From Deltaproteobacteria bacterium RIFOXYA12_FULL_61_11 (GTDB lineage Bacteria > Bdellovibrionota_F > JAHFAK01 > YA12-FULL-61-11): 10,657 nt of DNA. Positions 1 through 10,512 of the stretch are shown here, piece after piece. Location of the stretch: the NCBI GenBank assembly GCA_001799195.1, contig MGSU01000016.1:21530-32186 (forward strand). Reading direction: 5' to 3'. Below the pieces are notes generated by a model. That model was not told the origin of the DNA. It saw only the letters and a list, made by a program, of their open reading frames with translations, and made no database searches. The position numbers and the translations under genes are program-made. Within the stretch, counting starts at the first letter, position 1. Every line of letters begins with the position of its first letter.

Positions 1-1325
1 GGTTCGACCCAGGGGAGACCGGCCCGATCGAGATACTCTCCCATGCCCTTGACCATGCCGGTGTCGCGCCACGCCGGCCAACTCAGGGCCAGGCGACGCC
101 CCCTGCCCTGCTGAGCCCAGCGATCGAGGTGGGCGTTGGCCCCGGCATAAGCGGCGAAACCCGAACCAAGACCGGGCAAGTAAGAAGCGAGGGAGGTGAA
201 GAGCAGGATGAAGTCGGGTTCTTCGTGCTCGAGCAAAGCTCGGAAGAGAGCGAGGGGTCCGAGCTTGGCCTCGAACACGGCTTCGAGTTCGCCGAGCGAG
301 TGGTTCGCGAAGCCCGGATGCAAAAGGTCTATCCGGCCGGCGCAGTGGATCAGGCCTCTCAGCGGTAGATCGCGGAGGCGTGTAGAGCGGAGGTGGAGCA
401 GTCCGGCAGCATCCCCGGTATAATAGGTCACACTGTCGAAACGTCCTTGCAGCGCGAGGAGCCGGCGCAGGGAGCGTTGACGTGCATCCCCGGCCGGGAG
501 GCTCGCGGCGAGGTCGCGCCAGGTGCCCGGTTCGCCGAGGTCGGCCGACCCCACGATCAGCAGGTGGCGGACCCCTCGCCGGAAGAGGCGTTCCGCGAGC
601 AGGAAGCCGATATCGCCGGTGCCCCCGGCAAGCAGGTACAAGCCCTCGGGATCGAACCGCGCCTCTTCTCGAGGGCGTGGAGGGATCGCCTGGAGGGCCA
701 TGCGGGGTTCCAGGCGCCTACCGTTGCGCCAGACGGCGTCGGGTTGGTGCCCTCCGACCATCTCCCTCACCAGGAGGGCCGGGACACCGGGGTCCAACCG
801 TTCGAGTTGCAGGTTGCGCGGCCGCAGCCAGCGGTACTCGTCGCCGAGGACTCTATAGACGCCCTCGAGCGGCGAGCAGTCCCTCTCGGTCAGTGAGAGG
901 TGAACCAGATGGAAGGTTTCGGTGCGGTCCCGGCCGGCCAGCCGGCGCAGGAGTTCCAGTCTGCAACGCAGCGATACGGAGTTGTCGGGGGAGAGGTCGC
1001 AGGCGTCTACCAACCCGCAGCAGTCCGGTTCCTCGTCCAGTCGGGCGAGTATCGCGGTGGCGGCTGCTAGCGGGTCCTCGAGGGAAATCCGGCCTCGGGA
1101 CGCATCCGGACCGAGGACCAGGACCACGAATTCGACCTCCGCGGACGCTTGCAGGAGCGGGGAAGTCCGGTCCTCTTCCGAGGTGAGCAGTATAAATCGG
1201 GGACGCTCGAGCACCTGTAGGCCGGGGAGGTGTTCACGTTGTTCCAAGTCCAAACGCCAGAGGGCCAAGCTCTCGCTGCTCGTGGTCTGGGCGGAAGGTT
1301 CAGACGTGCTAGCAGCCGGTGCCGG
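1..1325 (-). other. Ketoreductase domain KR2, A-type by motif (runs to window edge)
   Basis: The structural half covers about residues 2785-3000, followed by the catalytic half with the NADPH motif AGGTGDIG near residue 3014. Lys3132, Ser3156, Tyr3171 and Asn3175 form the expected catalytic set. Ser and Tyr are 15 residues apart rather than 13, a two-residue longer loop (SYLPGLGSGF) known in many trans-AT KRs. The LDD position reads IDL (Asp3111-Leu3112), so the diagnostic second Asp is missing and an A-type (L-configured) hydroxyl is predicted, opposite to KR1. The WPAW motif after the active site is present. The C-terminal end, and whatever follows, lies outside the window. Confidence 0.9.
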
Positions 1326-4300
1326 CCAGTAGCGCATCCTCTCGAAGGGATAGCCAGGAAGATGCAAGGTCCTGCCCTGATCGGCCTCGGCGAGAGCATC
1401 CCCGGGCAGGGTTTCCCCACGAGCGTAGGCTTGGGCAAGGTCCTCGAGGACCGCCTTGCGATCCTTCGAAGGTAATGACGTGATGATTGGTTCCCCGGAG
1501 CGAGGTTGGTCTTCGTTGCAACCGGGACGGGTTGCACGTGCCAGCCCGAGGAGGTCGGGGCGTTCGAGTTCGGCGATCAAGTCGGCCCGTTCCTGTACGA
1601 GCAGCGCGAGTCGTACCTCGTGATGCCTGCGTCCGAGGGTGAGGGTGTGAGCGATATCACACAGCGAAGCGGTGGCGCCGGGGCCTTGTAACCATGCACG
1701 AAGCGTGTGCACCTGTTCCTGCAGGAGAGGCGCGGTCTTTGCCGAGAGCGGGAGCAACCAGGGCCCGGCAGCAGGCTTGGAGCGAGAGGGCTCCTCGGGA
1801 GCTTCCTCGAGGACGACATGACAATTGGTGCCGCTGATGCCGAAAGCGCTGACGCCGGCCCGCCGCGGAATACCCTCCCGACCGATGGTCCAGGGAGCCT
1901 TCTCGGACCCGATATGGAACGGAGTACCGGTGAACTCCAGTAAGTCGTTGAGCGGTTCGCTATGCAGGGAAGGGACCAAGGTACGATGGTAGAGACACAG
2001 CACCGTTTTGATCAAACCCGCGATGCCGGCGGCCGCGCCGAGGTGACCGAGGTTGGATTTCACCGAGCCGAGGACGCAACGGAAGTCGCGACGCGAAGCC
2101 ATGCGGAAGGCCCGGGTCAGGGCTTCGAACTCCACGGGATCTCCCAAGCGCGTGCCGGTGCCGTGGGCCTCCACGTAGCCCAGAGTGGCCGGGTCGATAC
2201 TATAGCGCTCATAGACTTGGCGTTCGAGGCGTTCTTGGGCCAGAGAACTCGGAGCGGTCATGCCGTTGGTGCGGCCGTCGTGGTTGACACCCGAGCCGAG
2301 GATCAGGGCGTAGACCGGGTTCTTGTCCCGCCGCGCGGCGGACAGGGGTTTGAGTACCACCACTCCGGCGCCCTCGCCGGGCACGAAACCGTCGGCCGAG
2401 CGGGAGAAGGTCCTGCAGCGACCGCTGGGAGAAAGCATCCCTGCCTTGGAAGCCAGGAGGTAGAACATGGGTGAGCTGTACACGTTGACCCCGCCCGCCA
2501 AGGCCAGGTCGCATTCTCCCGCGCGCAGGGCGGAACAGGCGAGGTGCAAGGCGACCAGGGAGGAGGAACACGCAGTATCGACCGGGAGACATGGTCCGTG
2601 CAGATCGAACAGGTAAGACAGTCTAGCTGAGAGGATCGAAGCGATGTTGCCGGTGTAGAGCAAGGGACTGAGGGGTTCTCGGCTGCGTCGCAGGACCTCG
2701 CCGTAATCGCCTGCGCCGGCGCCGACGAACACCCCGCAGGCCGAACCGTGAAGACCCTCGCCGACCATGCCCGCGTCTTCGAGGGCATGGTACGCGGTCT
2801 CGAGGAAAAGGCGCTGCTGGGGATCCGCGTAGAGAGCCTCCGCTCCGGAGAGCCCGAAGAAGAGGGGATCGAAGTGTTCGACCGAAGCGAGGAAACCTCC
2901 CTCGGTGCAGGTCAGGGCGGCCAGAGCAGCTTTCCGTTCGGCCGGGGGATAACATTCGAACCAACGGTGTTCGGGCAGAGGACCGACCGCATCGACGCCC
3001 GCAGCGAGATTAGCCCAGAGTTGTTCTAGCGTCGTGCTGCCTGGAAAGGTCGCAGCCATACCGATGACCGCAATCGGTTCGTCGGATGGGCGGGCACCAG
3101 AGGTCGAAAACCGGACTGCTGAGGCCGGACGTTCGACCGCGGAAGGGCGGGGGCGCATGCGCTCGGGCACTCCGGCGAGCAAGGTGCGGAGGTTGGTACG
3201 GCTGGTGCGCAGACCTTCGAGGACCACCAGGGGACGGTCCTGTTCGTCGTACAGAGCCAAGTCCAAGTCACTGTGAGTCGGCTGCTGCGAGATCGTCGCG
3301 ACGTGGCCGCGATAGCGCTCGGACACCAGAGGCCCGTATATGGTCAGGGAGCGTGCGCCCACGGGCACGAACAAGCTCTGCTCCGGGTCGATGGGGAGGT
3401 TCGCCAGGTATTGGCCGATCTGGAGCAATCCGTTCAAGGCCCAGGGATCGACGAGGTACCGGGCTCGTTCGGGAGCGCGCTCGGGAGCGTGCCGTAGGGT
3501 GGCGATGGCACTGCCGTTGGTGAGGAGGAAGTCGTGGACCACCTGGTACGCCGGACCGAAGGTCGCGCCGCGCAGGTTGCCGTAGAACGCATGTTTGTCG
3601 AGGTGCACGTCCTTGCACGCGGTGATGGTGGCCCAGGGAGGTGTTGCAGGGACCGCTGGTCTCTCGTAGGAGAGAGAACATGTAAGGCAGGGGGCTTCAA
3701 TACCGTCCGGTCCGAGGAGCCCGAGGGTCAGGCCAAATCCTCCGACCTTCGCGCGGAAGCGCAGGAGGAGGTCGGTTCGGAGCCCGATCATGCAGAACAC
3801 GGGAGTACGGATCTGCACGTTGCGGAGGCTGACTTCGAAGGGAGTGAACAGGCCGGCGCCTGCCTCGAAGATCAACTCGGCCAGGGCATCGAGAGAGAGG
3901 AAGGCCACGCCTTCGCCAAGAGCGTGTTCGCGGGTCAAGACGTCGGTATCAGGTCCGAGGCTGCAAGCCAGAACCGCGAGGTCGCCCTCGTTCTTTGGAA
4001 AGGGCAGAAACGTGAAGGCGGAGCCTTTCGATTCCAGGCCCTCGGAAGGGAGCCTTCCAGGTCGAGCGACCGCGGAGGGCGAGACCGGTGCCTGGACCGG
4101 CGAGAGGTGTTCGAGCTGGGAGGCTAAACGGCGCAGGGTGGGGTGATCGAACAAAGTTGTCGGCGTCAGGTCGACATGGAGGCGTTGCCGCAGCCGTTGG
4201 ACCAGTTCTACCGCGACGAGGGAATCCACTCCGAACTCGCTGAAAGGTCTGTCGAGCTCGAGTTCCTCGGGTGGGAGGGCGAGGTGCTCGGCCACCATGG

Positions 4301-7300
4301 CGCGCAGCTCTTGGAGCCGCCCGGTAGACGGTTGGGGAGAGCAGGGCTCGGGAGCGGGCCGGGTCGATACCTCCTTCTCCTGTACCATCGAGAGGGGAAG
4401 CGAGCCGTCGCTGACAGAGACCAGGACGGCTTGGGCGAAGTCGTCTTCGCCTTTGGTTCCCGGCATGCCGTACACTGCGGTGGCAAGGAACCCTGCTTCG
4501 GCCAGCAAGGTTCTCCAGCCGGAGCAGCTTGTTAGAGGGGCTCCGGGGAGCCGCAACTCTTTGTCCTGGAAGAGCCACCAGCCGTCCAGGAGTCCGAAGG
4601 TCATGGTGGCGAAGGCTTGCGAGGCTACGACCTCGTTGAGGAGCAGAACCCCACCCGCGGCGAGCAGGGCTTTAACCTGTTCGAGAGTGTGGCGCAGCGA
4701 GCTGGTGGCGTGCAGGACGTTCGAGGCTACCACCAGATCGTGTTCACCCGGTCGGAAACCCTGAGCTGCCAAGCTTTTCTCGAGGTCGAGCAGTCGGAAC
4801 TCGGGTTTGCAGGCGTTGTCCGTGAAAAGAGTACGGCCGTGCTCGAGGAAGACTCTGGAGAGATCGGTGTACCGGTAGCGCACCCGTGGAGCAAGGTCCC
4901 CGAGAGAGGCCAGCACCGCCCGGGTAGCACTACCCGTGCCGGCACCGACTTCCAGGAGCAGCACTTCCTCGCGTCGGGTGAGCAGAACCCGGATAATAGC
5001 AGCGAGGTGCGAGGCCAGGAGAGCGTTGTGGTAATCGGCGCCCGGGGTTCCCTCGTACACCGGCCGGACCAGGTGAGGGGATCCCTCGGGAAAGAATACC
5101 TGGGTCGCGGGGAGCTCTCCGCGGAGGATGGAGAGATAGTTGGTTGCCGCAGCCTCGAGCAGCGGCAAGAAGGGAGCGAGCGCGGGATGCTCGGTGGAGA
5201 GGCGATCGCGGAGCCGGTCGGCCAGGGTCGACAATTCGACCGACGACTGGGTCTGGAAGAATCCCCCTGTGGTCGCGTCTTGCCGGTTTCCTTGCCGAGC
5301 CTCGTGGAGGTGCGAGAGCATGGCGTGTACGTGCCCGTGCAGGGCAGGGATAACTCCCAGGGCTGTTGCGTACTCGGTGGCCTTGTCCGGTGAGGGTGGC
5401 GGGGAGGCTGTGGTTGCGCCGACCGCTCGCAGGAAGTACACGAGACTTAGGTGTTGGAGCATGTTCATGCCCGGCGCAAGATCGAGGGCCTCCGGTGGGG
5501 GCACCGGGGGAGGCACTTCCGAGAACCCTGCCGAGGTCGGGAAACGCGCGGGTAGTGCGACGCGCTGGGCTTCCTGCGATAGCCCGAGCTGACCGCGCAG
5601 GACGGGAGAGAGCTTGAACGGGATTATCCGCCATTGCGAGGAACCGGAGAAGGCCTCGAAGAGATCGAGACCCTCTGCCACGCCGATCGAGAGGATGCCC
5701 TGGCGTTCGAGGGCGGTGCGGTATTCCGGCCGGGCCACGGATCCCACCTCTCCCCAAAAACCCCAGTTGAGGAGTTTGACCGGCAGCCCGAGGTTGGTGC
5801 GCAGGAACTGGGCGAAGTAGTCTTGGAAGGTCGAGGCCGCGGCGTAGTTCGCCTGACCGGCGTTGCCGAACACGCTGATCGCCGAGGAGAAGAAACAGAG
5901 GAAATCGAGTTCGGCTCCCGCGAAGGTCCGAGCAAGGTTCACGCTGCCGTGGACCTTCGGCCGCAAGGCGGCGAGGAATCTCTGCTTGTTCTGCCGGAAC
6001 AGGGTCGCGTCGGCCAGGACCAAGGCCGAGTGGATCACCCCGTGCACGGGACCGAACGCGGCTTCGACCTCCTCCCTGCACCTTGCCAGGGCTGTGCTGT
6101 TGGTAACGTCGGCGGGGAAATAGCGAGCTTGGCCGCCGAGGGTTGTCAGTTCCTCCAGCTCGGTCCGGCCTCGCTGATCGAGGGGCCTGCGTCCGACCAG
6201 GGCGAGCTTGGCCTGGTACCGGCGGGCGAGGTGGCGGGCGACCTCGAGGCCCAAACCTCCCAGACCTCCCACGATGAGGTAACATCCCCGGTCACGAAAG
6301 GGGGCGTATTCTGCCGGAGCGAGCGTCAGCGCCTCCAGCCGTCTGACGTAGCGTCGGCCGCGGCGGAAGGCCAACTCGCGCTCCGTCGCGGGATCCTGTT
6401 CGGCGACGACCGAGGCCAGGGTCGCCTCGCGGTAGGGGCTTTCCTTCGACAACTCGGGAGAAGCCAGGTCCACCAAAATGGTGCGGATGGCGCGTTGCTC
6501 TTGGGCAAGTACTTTTACCAGACCGCAGAGGGTCGCAGGTCCAGGGTCGCAGATCTGGTCCCGCCCGTCGAGCACGGCGAGCTCCAAGGTGAGTACCTTG
6601 AGCAGCAGGGGGCGTTCAGAGGAACGTGCGACCAGGACCTTTGCCAACTGCAGCCCGAGCAGAGCAGTGCGTTCGGCCTGGAGTTCGAGGTCCGACGAGA
6701 GCCGGGGAGGCCGCGGTGGAGGTGGGAGCAGGTATACAGTGCCGCCGGCGGGTACTCGTTCCAAGGCCGAGCGCAGGGTTTGTTCCAGGTGGGGATCGTC
6801 CGGGGAGAGAGGATCGGTGAGTTCTTCGATCGGTCTGTCCGCGTGGAACTCGCGTAAGGCCTCGGCCAAGAGCGGATATCGTTCCCCATAGTGCAAGAAG
6901 AGAGAAGCCCCCTCCGGCGCTCGCGACTGGACTGGCGAAGCGCTCCAGCGCAGGTCGTAGAGATAGTCCGGCGTGGAGTTCCACGGCCGCAGCCTGGTTT
7001 GGAACCGCAGACCTTCGAGCTTGGCTACCAGCGCACCGGAGCTCTCGAACAGGTGCAGGTCGAAACAGACCCGCCCTGCCTCTGGTGCAGAGGAAGTCCT
7101 GCGGACATGGACCGTGGCCGCTCGGATGAGAGGAGCGTGGAGCGTACACCGGTCGAGCAGGTACGGCACCGGCGCCAGGTCCTGACGCCCCGCCACAACG
7201 AGGGCCAGGGCTGCTTGGAAGGCCGCATCGAGCACTCCGGCAGCGTTGAGGACATGGGAAGGCTCGGGAATCGCCTCCTGCTTGAGCAGCTCGGCCACGA

Positions 7301-9659
7301 GCTCTTCCCCCCGGATATACAGGCTCTTCAAGCCGCGATAGACCCCGCGATGCACGAAGCCGCGCGAATGGAGAGCGGTGTAGAACTGCTCGATCGGCAG
7401 TTCGGTGCCTTCCTCGGGGGTACTGAGGATCGGAATCGGACCCTCAGGGAACACGCTGCCGGCAGCACGGAGTCGGACGCTCGCGTGGGTGGTTGGTGCA
7501 TGGTCTAGACCGGTTCGCACCGAGACGATGGTACCGGAGGCGTCGTTGTCCCGGGTCAACGTTATTCGTTGCCGCCGATCGCAGAGCAGAGGGCTGAGGA
7601 AACGCGCTTCTCCGAGTTCCAGCGGAAAGGTGGTCCCGGCCGTCTCGAGGACGAGGGCGAGGAAGCCTGCCGCGGGAAGGACCGGAGTGCCGTCTACGCG
7701 GTGATCCGCCACCAGGGGGTCCTCGGGTGCGAGTTCCAGTTCTGCCGGAGGAACTTGCTCAACGCGGGGGGGGGGCGATGGTTCCGGCGACACCCAGTAG
7801 CGTTCGCGTTTGAAGGGATAGGTGGGCAGACTGAGCGGCCGTCCTCCGAGGGGTCGCAGGAGGGTACCCCAATCGAGGTCGTTTCCTCGCAGGTACGCCA
7901 GGACGGACTCGCGCCAGGGAGTATCGGTCAAACCCTCCACAAAGGTAGGAATATTCCCGAGGTTGTCTTGATAGCGCGAGGTCCATACTCCCGCGAGGGT
8001 TCGGCGCAAGAGGGTGAGGGCCTCGCCGAGTTCTGAGGAGAGCAGGATGGCTCGCTTCTGGAAATGATCGCGTCCGCAGGCCAGAGTCCTGACGACCTCG
8101 CGGAGTGTTACGGTGGTGGGGCGGCGCTCCAGCCAATCGGCGAAGTGTTCGAGGCGTTGGCGCAGCCCCTCCTCGGAACGGGCCGAGAAGAGCAGCGGCA
8201 CCATCTCGCCATCGTCGGGAACGGCTGAGTGTGACGTCTGTCGAGGAGCTTCCTCGAGCACCATGTGGCAGTTGGTGCCACTGAAACCGAAGGAGCTGAG
8301 GGCTGCTCGGCGCAAGGCGCCGGGATGCGCCGGCCAGGGTCTTGCCGAGGTGAGGGGGAAAAAGGCACCGCTCTCGAAATCGATGGCCGTGTTCGGACGT
8401 TCGAGATGCACGGTCGGGGGAAGGACCTGATGTTGGAAGGCGAGCAGGGTCTTGATCAAACCGGCGATGCCCGAGGCCGCGATGGTGTGCCCGATGTTGG
8501 ACTTGACCGACCCGAGCGCGCAGAACCCCTTCTTGGGGGTGAAGGTGCGGAAGGCGCGTTGCAGGGCCTGGACCTCGATCGGGTCCCCTAGCTTGGTACC
8601 GGTGCCGTGAGCCTCGAGATGACTCACCGTGGAGGGATCGACCTCGAGCTTCCGGTACACTCCTTCGAGCAACTCGATCTGCGCTGCCGGGTTGGGGGCG
8701 GTGATCCCGTTGGAACGGCCGTCCTGGTTGATCCCCGAGCCGAGGATCACGGCGTGGATCCGGTCCTCGTCCGCCACGGCCCGAGCCAGGGTTTTCAGGG
8801 CCACGACCCCGACCGCCTCACCGGGGACGAAGCCGTCGGCGCCCTCGTCGAAGACCCGGCAGGTGCCGCTGGGGGAGAGCATCCCGGATTTGCCATAGAG
8901 CAGGTGGAAGAGCGGGGTCAGCAGCAGGTTCACCCCGCCCGCCAAGGCCAGTTCGCACTCACCGGACGCCAGGTCGCGGCAGGCGAGATGCAGAGCGACG
9001 AGAGAAGAGCTGCAGGCCGTGTCCACGGTCAGACAGGGCCCTCGGAGATCGAGGAAATAGGCCACCCGGGCGGCGAGGATCGAAGGCGCGTTCCCGAGGA
9101 AGAAGGCCGCGCTGGCCGGCAAGCCTGCTTGGCGTACGAGTTGGGTATAATCCTGGGCACTGATTCCGGCGTAGACCCCGACTCGGCGACGTCCGAGGGC
9201 CGAGGGGGCTTGGCCGGCGTCCTCGAGGGCCGTGTAGGCGCATTCCAGGAACAGCCGCTGTTGCGGGTCCATCAAACGGGCTTCCCGGCCGGAGAGGTTG
9301 AAGAAGAGGGGATCGAAGCGGTCGACGTCGGTCAGAAAGCCGCCGTGACGGCAGGGGGTGGTGTTCTCGACCGAGGGATCGGGATGGTAGTACCGCTCGA
9401 TGGGCCAACGCTCGGCCGGCACCAAGGTGATGCCGGAGCGGCCGGAGGCCAGGAGTTCCCAGAACTGTTCGGGAGTATTTCCCCCGGGGAAGCGTCCGGC
9501 CAGGCCTATCACCGCAATGGCGTGGCTCGTGGTCCTGTTCCCGAGACCGGAAGAGACTGCCGACGAGGCCTGCATGGTCTCGAGCAGGTTCTTCGCCGCG
9601 CCCGTCCCGAGTTCGCCACCGGCGACCAACCGCAAGATCTGTTCTTTGAGGTCTTTCAT
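1..9659 (-). CDS. Trans-AT type I polyketide synthase, KS-DH-KR-cMT-ACP-DH*-KS-KR (partial, 3' end outside window)
   Basis: A single open frame of 3219 codons starts at the ATG at 9659 and runs off the window at position 1 without a stop. Domains in order (residues): N-terminal helical tail 1-45, KS1 46-475, linker 475-622, DH1 639-890, KR1 895-1375 (structural half, then catalytic half), C-methyltransferase 1395-1730, ACP1 1780-1850, DH-like domain 1885-2155, KS2 2194-2625, linker 2625-2778, KR2 about 2785 to the edge. There is no acyltransferase, GHSxG motif or enoyl reductase. The short post-KS linkers and the KR-before-MT order mark a trans-AT enzyme, so a separate AT must load malonyl units. 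The protein is one of several likely subunits of an assembly line, as it begins with a KS and no loading module. It follows the SDR by 28 bases in the same operon. The product cannot be named from this fragment. Confidence 0.96.
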   Translation of the reverse strand, partial: MKDLKEQILRLVAGGELGTGAAKNLLETMQASSAVSSGLGNRTTSHAIAVIGLAGRFPGGNTPEQFWELLASGRSGITLVPAERWPIERYYHPDPSVENTTPCRHGGFLTDVDRFDPLFFNLSGREARLMDPQQRLFLECAYTALEDAGQAPSALGRRRVGVYAGISAQDYTQLVRQAGLPASAAFFLGNAPSILAARVAYFLDLRGPCLTVDTACSSSLVALHLACRDLASGECELALAGGVNLLLTPLFHLLYGKSGMLSPSGTCRVFDEGADGFVPGEAVGVVALKTLARAVADEDRIHAVILGSGINQDGRSNGITAPNPAAQIELLEGVYRKLEVDPSTVSHLEAHGTGTKLGDPIEVQALQRAFRTFTPKKGFCALGSVKSNIGHTIAASGIAGLIKTLLAFQHQVLPPTVHLERPNTAIDFESGAFFPLTSARPWPAHPGALRRAALSSFGFSGTNCHMVLEEAPRQTSHSAVPDDGEMVPLLFSARSEEGLRQRLEHFADWLERRPTTVTLREVVRTLACGRDHFQKRAILLSSELGEALTLLRRTLAGVWTSRYQDNLGNIPTFVEGLTDTPWRESVLAYLRGNDLDWGTLLRPLGGRPLSLPTYPFKRERYWVSPEPSPPPRVEQVPPAELELAPEDPLVADHRVDGTPVLPAAGFLALVLETAGTTFPLELGEARFLSPLLCDRRQRITLTRDNDASGTIVSVRTGLDHAPTTHASVRLRAAGSVFPEGPIPILSTPEEGTELPIEQFYTALHSRGFVHRGVYRGLKSLYIRGEELVAELLKQEAIPEPSHVLNAAGVLDAAFQAALALVVAGRQDLAPVPYLLDRCTLHAPLIRAATVHVRRTSSAPEAGRVCFDLHLFESSGALVAKLEGLRFQTRLRPWNSTPDYLYDLRWSASPVQSRAPEGASLFLHYGERYPLLAEALREFHADRPIEELTDPLSPDDPHLEQTLRSALERVPAGGTVYLLPPPPRPPRLSSDLELQAERTALLGLQLAKVLVARSSERPLLLKVLTLELAVLDGRDQICDPGPATLCGLVKVLAQEQRAIRTILVDLASPELSKESPYREATLASVVAEQDPATERELAFRRGRRYVRRLEALTLAPAEYAPFRDRGCYLIVGGLGGLGLEVARHLARRYQAKLALVGRRPLDQRGRTELEELTTLGGQARYFPADVTNSTALARCREEVEAAFGPVHGVIHSALVLADATLFRQNKQRFLAALRPKVHGSVNLARTFAGAELDFLCFFSSAISVFGNAGQANYAAASTFQDYFAQFLRTNLGLPVKLLNWGFWGEVGSVARPEYRTALERQGILSIGVAEGLDLFEAFSGSSQWRIIPFKLSPVLRGQLGLSQEAQRVALPARFPTSAGFSEVPPPVPPPEALDLAPGMNMLQHLSLVYFLRAVGATTASPPPSPDKATEYATALGVIPALHGHVHAMLSHLHEARQGNRQDATTGGFFQTQSSVELSTLADRLRDRLSTEHPALAPFLPLLEAAATNYLSILRGELPATQVFFPEGSPHLVRPVYEGTPGADYHNALLASHLAAIIRVLLTRREEVLLLEVGAGTGSATRAVLASLGDLAPRVRYRYTDLSRVFLEHGRTLFTDNACKPEFRLLDLEKSLAAQGFRPGEHDLVVASNVLHATSSLRHTLEQVKALLAAGGVLLLNEVVASQAFATMTFGLLDGWWLFQDKELRLPGAPLTSCSGWRTLLAEAGFLATAVYGMPGTKGEDDFAQAVLVSVSDGSLPLSMVQEKEVSTRPAPEPCSPQPSTGRLQELRAMVAEHLALPPEELELDRPFSEFGVDSLVAVELVQRLRQRLHVDLTPTTLFDHPTLRRLASQLEHLSPVQAPVSPSAVARPGRLPSEGLESKGSAFTFLPFPKNEGDLAVLACSLGPDTDVLTREHALGEGVAFLSLDALAELIFEAGAGLFTPFEVSLRNVQIRTPVFCMIGLRTDLLLRFRAKVGGFGLTLGLLGPDGIEAPCLTCSLSYERPAVPATPPWATITACKDVHLDKHAFYGNLRGATFGPAYQVVHDFLLTNGSAIATLRHAPERAPERARYLVDPWALNGLLQIGQYLANLPIDPEQSLFVPVGARSLTIYGPLVSERYRGHVATISQQPTHSDLDLALYDEQDRPLVVLEGLRTSRTNLRTLLAGVPERMRPRPSAVERPASAVRFSTSGARPSDEPIAVIGMAATFPGSTTLEQLWANLAAGVDAVGPLPEHRWFECYPPAERKAALAALTCTEGGFLASVEHFDPLFFGLSGAEALYADPQQRLFLETAYHALEDAGMVGEGLHGSACGVFVGAGAGDYGEVLRRSREPLSPLLYTGNIASILSARLSYLFDLHGPCLPVDTACSSSLVALHLACSALRAGECDLALAGGVNVYSSPMFYLLASKAGMLSPSGRCRTFSRSADGFVPGEGAGVVVLKPLSAARRDKNPVYALILGSGVNHDGRTNGMTAPSSLAQERLERQVYERYSIDPATLGYVEAHGTGTRLGDPVEFEALTRAFRMASRRDFRCVLGSVKSNLGHLGAAAGIAGLIKTVLCLYHRTLVPSLHSEPLNDLLEFTGTPFHIGSEKAPWTIGREGIPRRAGVSAFGISGTNCHVVLEEAPEEPSRSKPAAGPWLLPLSAKTAPLLQEQVHTLRAWLQGPGATASLCDIAHTLTLGRRHHEVRLALLVQERADLIAELERPDLLGLARATRPGCNEDQPRSGEPIITSLPSKDRKAVLEDLAQAYARGETLPGDALAEADQGRTLHLPGYPFERMRYWPAPAASTSEPSAQTTSSESLALWRLDLEQREHLPGLQVLERPRFILLTSEEDRTSPLLQASAEVEFVVLVLGPDASRGRISLEDPLAAATAILARLDEEPDCCGLVDACDLSPDNSVSLRCRLELLRRLAGRDRTETFHLVHLSLTERDCSPLEGVYRVLGDEYRWLRPRNLQLERLDPGVPALLVREMVGGHQPDAVWRNGRRLEPRMALQAIPPRPREEARFDPEGLYLLAGGTGDIGFLLAERLFRRGVRHLLIVGSADLGEPGTWRDLAASLPAGDARQRSLRRLLALQGRFDSVTYYTGDAAGLLHLRSTRLRDLPLRGLIHCAGRIDLLHPGFANHSLGELEAVFEAKLGPLALFRALLEHEEPDFILLFTSLASYLPGLGSGFAAYAGANAHLDRWAQQGRGRRLALSWPAWRDTGMVKGMGEYLDRAGLPWVE
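1326..1799 (-). other. Post-KS2 flanking linker in place of an AT domain
   Basis: About 155 residues follow KS2 and end in LPGYPFERMRYW, with Trp2778 closing the segment. As after KS1, no AT domain fits in this length and no serine nucleophile motif is present. The next segment goes directly into the KR structural half, so there is no DH directly after KS2. Confidence 0.82.
1800..3080 (-). other. Ketosynthase domain KS2
   Basis: This condensing domain (about residues 2194-2625) takes the ACP1 product after any DH* action. The triad is complete: Cys2364 in DTACSSS, His2499 in AHGTGT and His2539 in SNLGH. Residues from the opening IAVIG (2196) to His2539 match KS1 at a constant offset of 2148 codons, so the two domains have no net insertion or deletion over that stretch. 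GPC and GTNCH are shared with KS1. It should be active in elongation. Confidence 0.95.
2489..2874 (-). repeat. KS-derived direct repeat, copy in KS2 (partner at 8933-9318)
   Basis: Two exact 19-base matches, at 2489-2507 and 2856-2874, recur at 8933-8951 and 9300-9318. Both pairs sit at exactly the same offset of 6444 bases. They mark the homologous KS1 and KS2 coding segments, a substrate for intragenic recombination that would remove or add one module in frame. Confidence 0.85.
3195..4010 (-). other. DH-like domain (DH*) with Asp-to-Asn change: candidate enoyl isomerase or pyran synthase
   Basis: This is a second complete double-hotdog domain (about residues 1885-2155), placed between ACP1 and KS2. 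His1912 is retained, but the HxxxGxxxxP motif is degraded: Gly at +4 is Glu and Pro at +9 is Leu. The catalytic Asp of the DxxxQ motif is Asn2076 (LNGLLQ), and the HP before it is DP (Asp2071). TFGPAY in the second hotdog is conserved, so the fold is probably intact and not decaying at random. From recalled family knowledge, loss of the Asp and Pro with retention of His marks double-bond-shifting enoyl isomerases. Pyran synthases share part of the pattern. A standard dehydratase is unlikely; an inactive domain remains possible. Confidence 0.82.
4110..4322 (-). other. Acyl carrier protein domain ACP1
   Basis: This is a carrier domain of normal size (about residues 1780-1850). The phosphopantetheine site Ser1813 lies in FGVDSLVAVEL. 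It is flanked by Pro/Ser-rich linkers on both sides. It is a single copy and holds the intermediate worked on by DH1, KR1 and the methyltransferase, and probably by the DH-like domain that follows. No tandem ACP or beta-branching Trp signature was noticed. Confidence 0.94.
4470..5477 (-). other. C-methyltransferase domain
   Basis: This SAM-dependent domain (PKS residues about 1395-1730) adds a methyl to the alpha carbon of the ACP-bound beta-ketoacyl chain. It has the SAM-binding motif EVGAGTG (Glu1570, Gly1572), then DLVVASNVLHAT with His1650 and LLNEV with Glu1676. These match the His-Glu pair expected in PKS C-methyltransferases. The FGLLDGWW stretch after them is characteristic of the C- rather than O-methyltransferase type. 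Its place after the KR is usual for trans-AT lines; cis-AT lines have it before. Confidence 0.92.
5530..6985 (-). other. Ketoreductase domain KR1, B-type by motif
   Basis: This NADPH-dependent beta-ketoreductase comprises a structural half (about 895-1110) and a catalytic half (about 1120-1375). The catalytic half carries GGLGGLG from residue 1131, Lys1235, Ser1259 and Tyr1272. The residue four after the Tyr is Ser1276 rather than Asn, a variation also known in KRs that precede methyltransferases. LAD at the LDD position keeps the diagnostic Asp1217, which predicts a B-type (D-configured) hydroxyl. The HSALVLAD stretch is typical of trans-AT KRs. Active by motif. Confidence 0.92.
6990..7745 (-). 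other. Dehydratase domain DH1 (catalytic His and Asp present, YGP motif lost)
   Basis: This double-hotdog dehydratase spans PKS residues about 639-890 and would remove water from the beta-hydroxyl made by KR1. His653 sits in a full HxxxGxxxxP motif (HRVDGTPVLPAAG). Asp811 sits in DAAFQ, the DxxxQ motif, so the catalytic dyad is intact. The conserved GxxYGPxF segment is instead GFVHRGVY (767-774), so Tyr, Gly and Pro are changed. The domain is probably folded and may be active, but this deviation makes its activity uncertain. Confidence 0.88.
7766..7775 (-). repeat. Run of ten C (coding strand) in the KS1-DH1 linker
   Basis: Ten consecutive G on the plus strand read as ten C in the coding strand, giving three Pro codons and the first base of an Arg codon in SPPPR. 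The frame is intact on both sides: the KS1 motifs upstream and DH1 His653 downstream share one codon phase at the stated length. Long homopolymers are prone to replication slippage and to sequencing error, so this is the weakest point of the frame. Confidence 0.9.
7794..8244 (-). other. Post-KS1 flanking linker in place of an AT domain
   Basis: About 150 residues (475-622) separate KS1 from DH1. A cis AT would need roughly 300 further residues and a GHSxG serine motif, neither of which is present. The segment runs through LLFSARS to LPTYPFKRERYW with Trp622 at its end, the standard termination of the KS flanking subdomain in trans-AT synthases. In these systems the free-standing AT is thought to dock in this region. 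Confidence 0.85.
8245..9524 (-). other. Ketosynthase domain KS1
   Basis: This condensing domain (PKS residues about 46-475) accepts the chain from the upstream carrier and elongates it with a malonyl unit. It opens with IAVIG at residue 48. The active-site Cys216 lies in DTACSSS, His351 in AHGTGT and His391 in SNIGH, so the Cys-His-His triad is complete and it should be an elongating KS rather than a silent KS0. DPLFFN around the middle of the domain is more like trans-AT than cis-AT ketosynthases. Two small peculiarities are shared with KS2: GPC before the active site where GPA or GPS is usual, and GTNCH near the end where GTNAH is usual. Confidence 0.95.
8933..9318 (-). repeat. KS-derived direct repeat, copy in KS1 (partner at 2489-2874)
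   Basis: Partner of the KS2 segment. Identity beyond the two 19-base blocks is partial at the DNA level, as expected for paralogous ketosynthase domains rather than a very recent duplication. Confidence 0.85.
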
Positions 9660-9687: not shown

Positions 9688-10512
9688 TCAAACCTCTTCG
9701 GTGAGCAAGGCCGAGAACAAGCCGTTGCCCAGGAGCGATTGGCCGCAGTCGGCGACGAGCACCGCTCCGGTCACGCAGGAGGCGAGGGGAGAAGTCAGGA
9801 AGAGCGCGGTCCGCGCGAGCTCGTCGAGTTCGGGAAAACGGCGCAGGGGAAGGTGGGCCGCCAATCTCTCCGCGGCTGCTTCCGGGATTAAACGGCGGAA
9901 ACCCTCGGTTGCCCGTACAGCTCCGGGTACCAGGCTGTTACAGCGAATACCGTGGCGGCCCCACTCCGCGGCGAGGGTACGCATCAGGGCGTCCATACCC
10001 GCTTTGGCGGCGCATACGTGACTTTGATAGGGAGTGGGCAGGAAGGCCTGAGGGGCGGAGATGAAGAGCAAGGTGCCTTTACTGTCGCGGAGATGCGGGA
10101 AGGCCTCACGGCCGAGCACGAAGGCTCCACGCAGATCGCTGTCGAGGACCCGGTCGAACCCGGCGAGACTTAGGTCTTCGGCCGGGTAGGGAGTGTTGAC
10201 CGCCGCACCATGGACCACCACGTCGAGGCCGCCGCGTCGGCCGACCAGTTCCGAAAGTGCAGCCGATACAGCGGGTTGGTCGGTGACATCCAGGACGACG
10301 TGTTCGGCCGAACCTCCGGCCCTCGTGAGTTGTTCGACAGCCTCGAGGAGTACTTTTTCGCGGCGGCCGCAGACCGCCACGTGAGCCCCTGCCGCGGCGT
10401 AGGCTCGGGCCAAGGCGAGGTTGATCCCGGTGCCCACGCCGGCGACGAACACGGTCCGGTCCCGGAAGTAAGGACCGAAACAACCGGTCAGGTCCAGGGG
10501 AGGAACAGTCAT
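9688..10512 (-). CDS. SDR-family oxidoreductase, 2,4-dienoyl-CoA reductase-like, lacking the YxxxK Tyr
   Basis: This is a complete 274-residue cytosolic NAD(P)-dependent short-chain dehydrogenase/reductase of normal classical-SDR length. A Rossmann dinucleotide motif sits near residues 22-31 (VAGVGTGIN; the usual final Gly is Asn31). Asp75 in VLDVTD is the adenine-contacting position, and HGAAVN (101-106) replaces the usual NxAG. Ser152 lies in the active-site region and Lys170 is the catalytic lysine. The Tyr of YxxxK is replaced by Val166, with Tyr162 nearby. From recalled family features, loss of that Tyr together with the TEGFRRL stretch (202-208) and SPLASxVTGAVLVAD near the C-terminus points to the 2,4-dienoyl-CoA reductase branch. 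FabI-type enoyl-ACP reductase is a weaker alternative. It sits between an unidentified protein and a PKS in one operon, so a trans-acting enoyl or dienoyl reduction of a carrier-bound intermediate is plausible but inferred. SDR membership is near certain; the substrate is not. Confidence 0.9.
   Translation of the reverse strand: MTVPPLDLTGCFGPYFRDRTVFVAGVGTGINLALARAYAAAGAHVAVCGRREKVLLEAVEQLTRAGGSAEHVVLDVTDQPAVSAALSELVGRRGGLDVVVHGAAVNTPYPAEDLSLAGFDRVLDSDLRGAFVLGREAFPHLRDSKGTLLFISAPQAFLPTPYQSHVCAAKAGMDALMRTLAAEWGRHGIRCNSLVPGAVRATEGFRRLIPEAAAERLAAHLPLRRFPELDELARTALFLTSPLASCVTGAVLVADCGQSLLGNGLFSALLTEEV

Follow-up and report, generated by a model that had tools for sequence, protein, structure and literature searches.

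The locus and its assembly line

The window, i.e. the whole stretch of 10,657 nucleotides analysed here, forms the right-hand end of a contig of 32,186 bases (C16) from a genome of 4.64 Mb that is 87% complete. It is occupied by a minus-strand open reading frame (3–9659) for a polyketide synthase (PKS), which extends past the window to a total of 4,082 aa and contains one stretch of N. Including the part beyond the window, the domain order of this gene is KS1-DH1-KR-MT-ACP-DH*-KS2-KR-condensation-like-ACP-thioesterase, where DH* stands for the dehydratase (DH)-like domain at the centre of this analysis (Table 1). The gene encodes no acyltransferase (AT) and two discrete acyltransferases are found elsewhere on the contig, which together mark it as part of a trans-AT assembly line.

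Table 1. Features of the PKS gene within the window; residues are numbered in the encoded protein.
Feature	Position in window	Strand	Basis or remark
KS1	8280..9524	-	Cys/His/His intact
DH1, motif-complete dehydratase (HRVDGTPVLP, VLDAAFQ)	6960..7742	-	Pfam; panel alignment
KR of upstream module	5730..6308	-	Pfam KR
C-methyltransferase (MT) domain	4425..5222	-	Pfam Methyltransf_12
ACP of upstream module (FGVDSL)	4110..4337	-	Probable carrier of the DH* substrate
DH*, Asp-less DH-like double hotdog, aa 1884-2155	3195..4010	-	Pfam PF14765 at 2007-2155; AlphaFold2; VIA
His1912, catalytic histidine kept	3924..3926	-	Sequence, alignment
Gly1915-Glu1916, site of one-residue insertion in HxxxGxxxxP	3912..3917	-	Three alignments
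Ser1922 at motif Pro position	3894..3896	-	Pro in 98/117 of panel; strand/helix boundary in model
Asp1924, first hotdog helix	3888..3890	-	Common to Legionella relatives; 0/117 others
FGPAY, aa 2034-2038	3546..3560	-	Sequence
Asn2076 (AAC) at catalytic Asp position	3432..3434	-	Alignment, codon
Gln2080, Gln of DxxxQ kept	3420..3422	-	Alignment
KS2, directly after DH*	1830..3083	-	Cys/His/His intact
Second KR	60..782	-	Pfam KR, second stretch

Past the second KR (about 18940–21500 of the contig), a condensation-like domain with an HHxxxD motif (HHAVGDR) and a Pfam score below the cut-off is followed by an ACP and a thioesterase, an uncommon ending for a PKS module. Upstream, a gene for an SDR-family reductase (9688–10512 of the window, minus strand), possibly a trans-acting reductase, ends 29 bases ahead of the start of the PKS gene. 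In addition, four genes with a radical-SAM CxxxCxxC motif adjoin the PKS gene on the contig (about 5946–7868 on the minus strand; 10983–12629, 13362–14810 and 14749–16296 on the plus strand), and the two that were run against Pfam match Radical_SAM together with a sub-threshold B12-binding domain.

A DH-like domain that has lost its catalytic Asp

The preliminary description had reported a DH-like domain at 3195–4010, with the signatures of both hotdogs (FGPAY included), a retained His1912 and an Asn in place of the catalytic Asp, and all of this is borne out. Pfam PS-DH matches the domain, and an AlphaFold2 model (mean pLDDT 79.2, pTM 0.81, from a 9-row alignment) has the expected fold: VIA structural alignment gives Z scores of about 28 to about 31 against DH crystal structures, 28.6 against a pyran synthase (PS) and 24.5 against the shorter chain of an enoyl isomerase (EI). 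Fold similarity, as judged from this model, fails to separate the three classes.

A further statement of the same description, that the Gly and Pro of HxxxGxxxxP are replaced by Glu and Leu, is an artefact of counting without gaps. In three gapped alignments, the stretch H-A-L-G-E-G-V-A-F-L-S of DH* carries one extra residue, such that the motif Gly is preserved as Gly1917, the Pro position is taken by Ser1922 and Leu1921 corresponds to the Leu normally seen in V-L-P. The model, which was built on one of these gapped alignments and is not wholly independent of them, agrees with this placement, with a strand at V1918–L1921 and a helix starting at L1923. With canonical DHs such as CurK, CurF and the first DH of PksJ, the domain thus has in common the fold, the His, the Gly, the GP and Gln2080; it differs from them in its Asn for Asp, which leaves it without the canonical His/Asp dyad, in the DP that replaces the HP ahead of the catalytic Asp position, in the Ser for Pro and in the inserted residue. 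A phmmer search of the PDB returned only CurF, AlnB and CurK, with weak E-values, and NCBIfam holds no match for the domain.

How unusual the Asn is can be read from a panel of 120 DH-like domains, which began as 114 distinct domains, lost two partial ones and gained six sequences from the PDB plus two that were added later. The 114 were drawn from the source genome and from 11 genomes reached via relatives of KS2, among them Acidobacteriota, Streptomyces, Nocardia, Burkholderia and Legionella. When the EI, PS and Legionella groups are set aside, the catalytic Asp is present in 100 of 104 domains and Asn in none; the four exceptions (Thr, Glu, Leu and Gln) all belong to one Legionella cluster. 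The only panel members with an Asn here are DH*, one uncharacterised Legionella relative, the PksR EI and five of the seven pyran synthases. A further Asn, in PDB 5tz7, was set aside as a natural precedent, as the entry is an engineered protein titled ‘CurK Dehydratase D1169N Inactive Mutant’. Because Asn is nearly confined to non-dehydratases in the panel and the CurK D1169N mutant is titled inactive, dehydration by DH* appears unlikely; it would also be unneeded, because DH1 of the same module has the full motif. Given that the source is one draft genome, the AAC codon may be a single-base sequencing error for GAC.

Relatives of DH* and the marks of neighbouring classes

Parts of the literature on EIs (PMC11672594; PMC9600693) name two marks, a change of the motif Pro to Leu or Val and a change of the Gln/His of DxxxQ/H to Val or Leu, and the PksR EI (HVFNNERVLV and NSAYL; PDB 4u3v) agrees with them. 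Like PksR, DH* is a double hotdog with a catalytic His and an Asn for the Asp. Both marks are absent, however: Ser1922 stands at the Pro position according to the gapped alignments and the secondary structure of the model (a Leu would stand there only if counted without gaps), where EIs have Val or Leu, and Gln2080 is retained where PksR has Leu. The context differs as well, since DH* lies between an ordinary ACP and a KS, whereas the EI order is KS0-EI-ACP. In addition, Asn is no EI marker, because three of the six EI-clade domains keep the Asp. In the best maximum likelihood (ML) tree (50 rows), the EI clade (98/94) excludes DH*, and its scores against EI profiles (20–33 bits) do not exceed those against DH profiles (up to 49 bits). 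AU tests did not reject a grouping of DH* with the EIs (p-AU 0.127; 0.112 with both Asp columns masked), nor did they across all constraints joining EIs and DH* with or without the Legionella domains (p-AU 0.11–0.35). For the enoyl-isomerase pattern invoked in the preliminary description, the Asn is shared with PksR and the EI topology is not rejected, while the two marks are absent and the best trees place the domain outside the EI clade; the isomerase assignment is possible rather than proven.

The ring-forming assignment made in the same description fares worse. PS marks given in parts of the literature are a change of Asp to His or Asn, a deletion in HxxxGxxxxP and a position adjoining a DH (PMC4979870; PMC5772238), and the SorB PS (DHEQLFP and NSVLV; PDB 6b2v) agrees with them. 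SorB resembles DH* in its double hotdog, its retained His and its Asn, the last being the sole PS mark in DH*. Unlike SorB, DH* keeps the Gln and has a one-residue insertion instead of the deletion (found in five of the seven panel pyran synthases), and it is flanked by MT-ACP and a KS rather than by a DH before a KR. The PS clade (97/86) lies apart from DH* in the 50-row tree, and the AU test rejects their union (p-AU 0.009, or 0.0087 unrounded; 0.016 with both Asp columns masked). As a separate observation, the genomes of a Holophagae MAG and of Acanthopleuribacter pedis hold many DH-PS tandems (L095/L119, L097/L121, L098/L122 and L016), in which the motif deletion varies; it is absent in L016 and L121, where the Asp is also kept.

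The best-supported relatives of DH* are three Legionella-type domains, LegA (L091), LegB (L168) and LegC (L195), with which it groups at 96/96 without LegC, 97/97 with LegC and, once both Asp columns are masked, 89/96. Because the branches are long and the tree tool warns of long-branch joining, this grouping is probable rather than proven. LegA and LegB resemble DH* in sitting directly ahead of a KS, in having lost the Asp (Asn or Ser) and in carrying an Asp in the first hotdog helix; they differ from it in an identity of only about 20%, in having lost the Gln and the GP while keeping the Pro, and in following a KS-DH-ACP module instead of KS-DH-KR-MT-ACP. LegC, by comparison, lies in a KS-DH′-ACP module after KS-DH-KR-MT-ACP and keeps the Asp. 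All four members of the lineage have the His, despite the low identity, and all four have an Asp two residues past the Pro position (Asp1924 in DH*), which is found in none of the 117 other domains, where Ala or Val prevails. In single-hotdog dehydratases, the equivalent position presumably forms part of the active-site lining.

The neighbouring KS mildly backs the Legionella link: among 161 KS domains, the highest bit score to KS2 is that of the KS behind LegB's domain, while the sisters of KS2 in the tree are Streptomyces KSs without a DH*-like domain. Further matches of the lineage profile in Legionellales and Burkholderiales were discarded as ordinary DHs, with the Asp present wherever the motif is readable, and a pairing of DH* with an Acidobacteriota DH (85/84), which arose when the Legionella rows were left out, was treated as noise. 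Neither a single-domain scan of named genomes nor a plasmid tblastn returned relatives of DH*. Grouping with ordinary dehydratases, which the preliminary description had named as evidence against its own reading, is not clearly found: uniting DH* with the canonical trans-AT DHs gives a p-AU of 0.082 (0.08 when rounded). One Legionella MAG cluster (L091, minus strand) also encodes several degenerate DH-like domains lacking the Asp (Thr, Glu, Leu or Gln); in one of the modules concerned, KS-DH-DH-ACP, it is missing from both DHs.

By motifs and trees, then, DH* is a variant among the double-hotdog DH-like domains found in trans-AT PKSs, one that falls outside the PS clade and does not clearly belong with the EIs, and it probably represents a lineage separate from both. 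This matters for trans-AT PKS product prediction, in which the motifs of a DH-like domain decide whether it is taken for a dehydratase, an isomerase, a pyran synthase or a dead domain. The Asn alone would label DH* an EI or a PS, yet the other marks of both fail, making the domain a caution against assignment from a single residue and a candidate for another His-based chemistry from a phylum of which the searched set contained only two genomes.

A proposed function and its rivals

The reading we favour, albeit tentatively, is that DH* is a non-dehydrating, His-based olefin isomerase that acts before KS2 on an ACP-bound alpha-methyl-enoyl chain. Judging from the motifs, KS1 would extend the chain, the KR would reduce it, the MT would add an alpha-methyl group and DH1 would remove water, yielding an alpha-methyl-alpha,beta-enoyl-ACP. 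By analogy with PksR, DH* would act on this enoyl chain while it is still bound to the same, adjacent ACP. His1912 would serve as the general base, with position 2076 providing no acid to expel or add water, and removal of a gamma-proton followed by reprotonation of the alpha-carbon would shift the double bond from alpha,beta to beta,gamma before KS2 takes the chain. Such a shift would be the most economical reaction because His1912 is present and an acid at 2076 is not. DH* would work like a trans-AT EI but come from a probably separate lineage that carries the extra Asp1924, located where the first hotdog helix starts. This proposal is in line with PksR, a solved isomerase that likewise combines a His with an Asn, with the redundancy of a second dehydratase beside the motif-complete DH1 and with LegC, which likewise follows a KS-DH-KR-MT-ACP module. 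Against it stand the missing EI marks, the position outside the EI clade and the low EI profile scores, as well as the further site losses (Gln and GP) of the Legionella relatives, which are as expected of inactive domains.

Those losses lead to the main rival, which we consider a real if lesser possibility: a dead DH kept between the ACP and KS2 as a spacer, a dimerisation element or an element positioning the ACP and KS. The lost Asp, the change of HP to DP and of Pro to Ser, the loop insertion and the very long branch of DH* would all suit such a role, as would the variability of the Legionella relatives, which have Asn or Ser at the Asp site and have lost the Gln. Moreover, inactive DHs have been reported in trans-AT PKSs (PMC9600693). 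Speaking against this rival are the His that every member of the lineage has retained, the Asp1924 common to them and the confidently predicted fold. The G+C content of DH* (0.640; GC3 0.776) matches that of the neighbouring domains and its reading frame is open, without a stop; together with the confident model, this argues against a fresh pseudo-domain, though not against a long-standing structural role. The view that the domain reflects altered chemistry rather than decay, put forward in the preliminary description, gains from the occurrence of Asn in non-dehydratases, from the CurK mutant titled inactive, from the presence of the motif-complete DH1 and from the lack of decay in base composition.

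Rather unlikely is a third class of Asp-less DH-like domains apart from EIs and pyran synthases, placed immediately before a KS, in which the helix Asp would replace the lost one and the domain would tailor or proofread the chain before hand-over. A strict swap of one Asp for the other was rejected, since LegC has both.

Improbable, too, is a domain that would epimerise the alpha-methyl centre or interconvert E and Z olefins through deprotonation by His1912, with no net shift of the double bond. His-only chemistry would be enough for this, the module has a C-methyltransferase, and GphF DH1, which reportedly epimerises as well, would be a precedent; however, no sequence mark of this activity is known.

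The two remaining alternatives are highly improbable. Oxa-Michael ring closure by a pyran or furan synthase could draw on the Asn, as in the PS clade, and on an enoyl provided by DH1, but it is opposed by the rejected clade, by an insertion where a deletion is expected and by the position after MT and ACP, given that pyran synthases lie beside a DH. Least probable of all is continued dehydration with Asp1924 standing in for Asp2076: this lineage-only Asp does accompany loss of the usual one in three of the four members, but LegC breaks the pattern and DH1 already supplies dehydration.

Besides DH*, the source organism has what is by sequence a standard EI. On another contig of the same genome (C103; L007), a minus-strand open reading frame (3–2675) begins with an EI-clade DH-like domain (HTVYGSRVLI; LDGAIL) at its N-terminus, in the order DH-ACP-KS, and the gene before it carries a KS without the HGTGT histidine motif.
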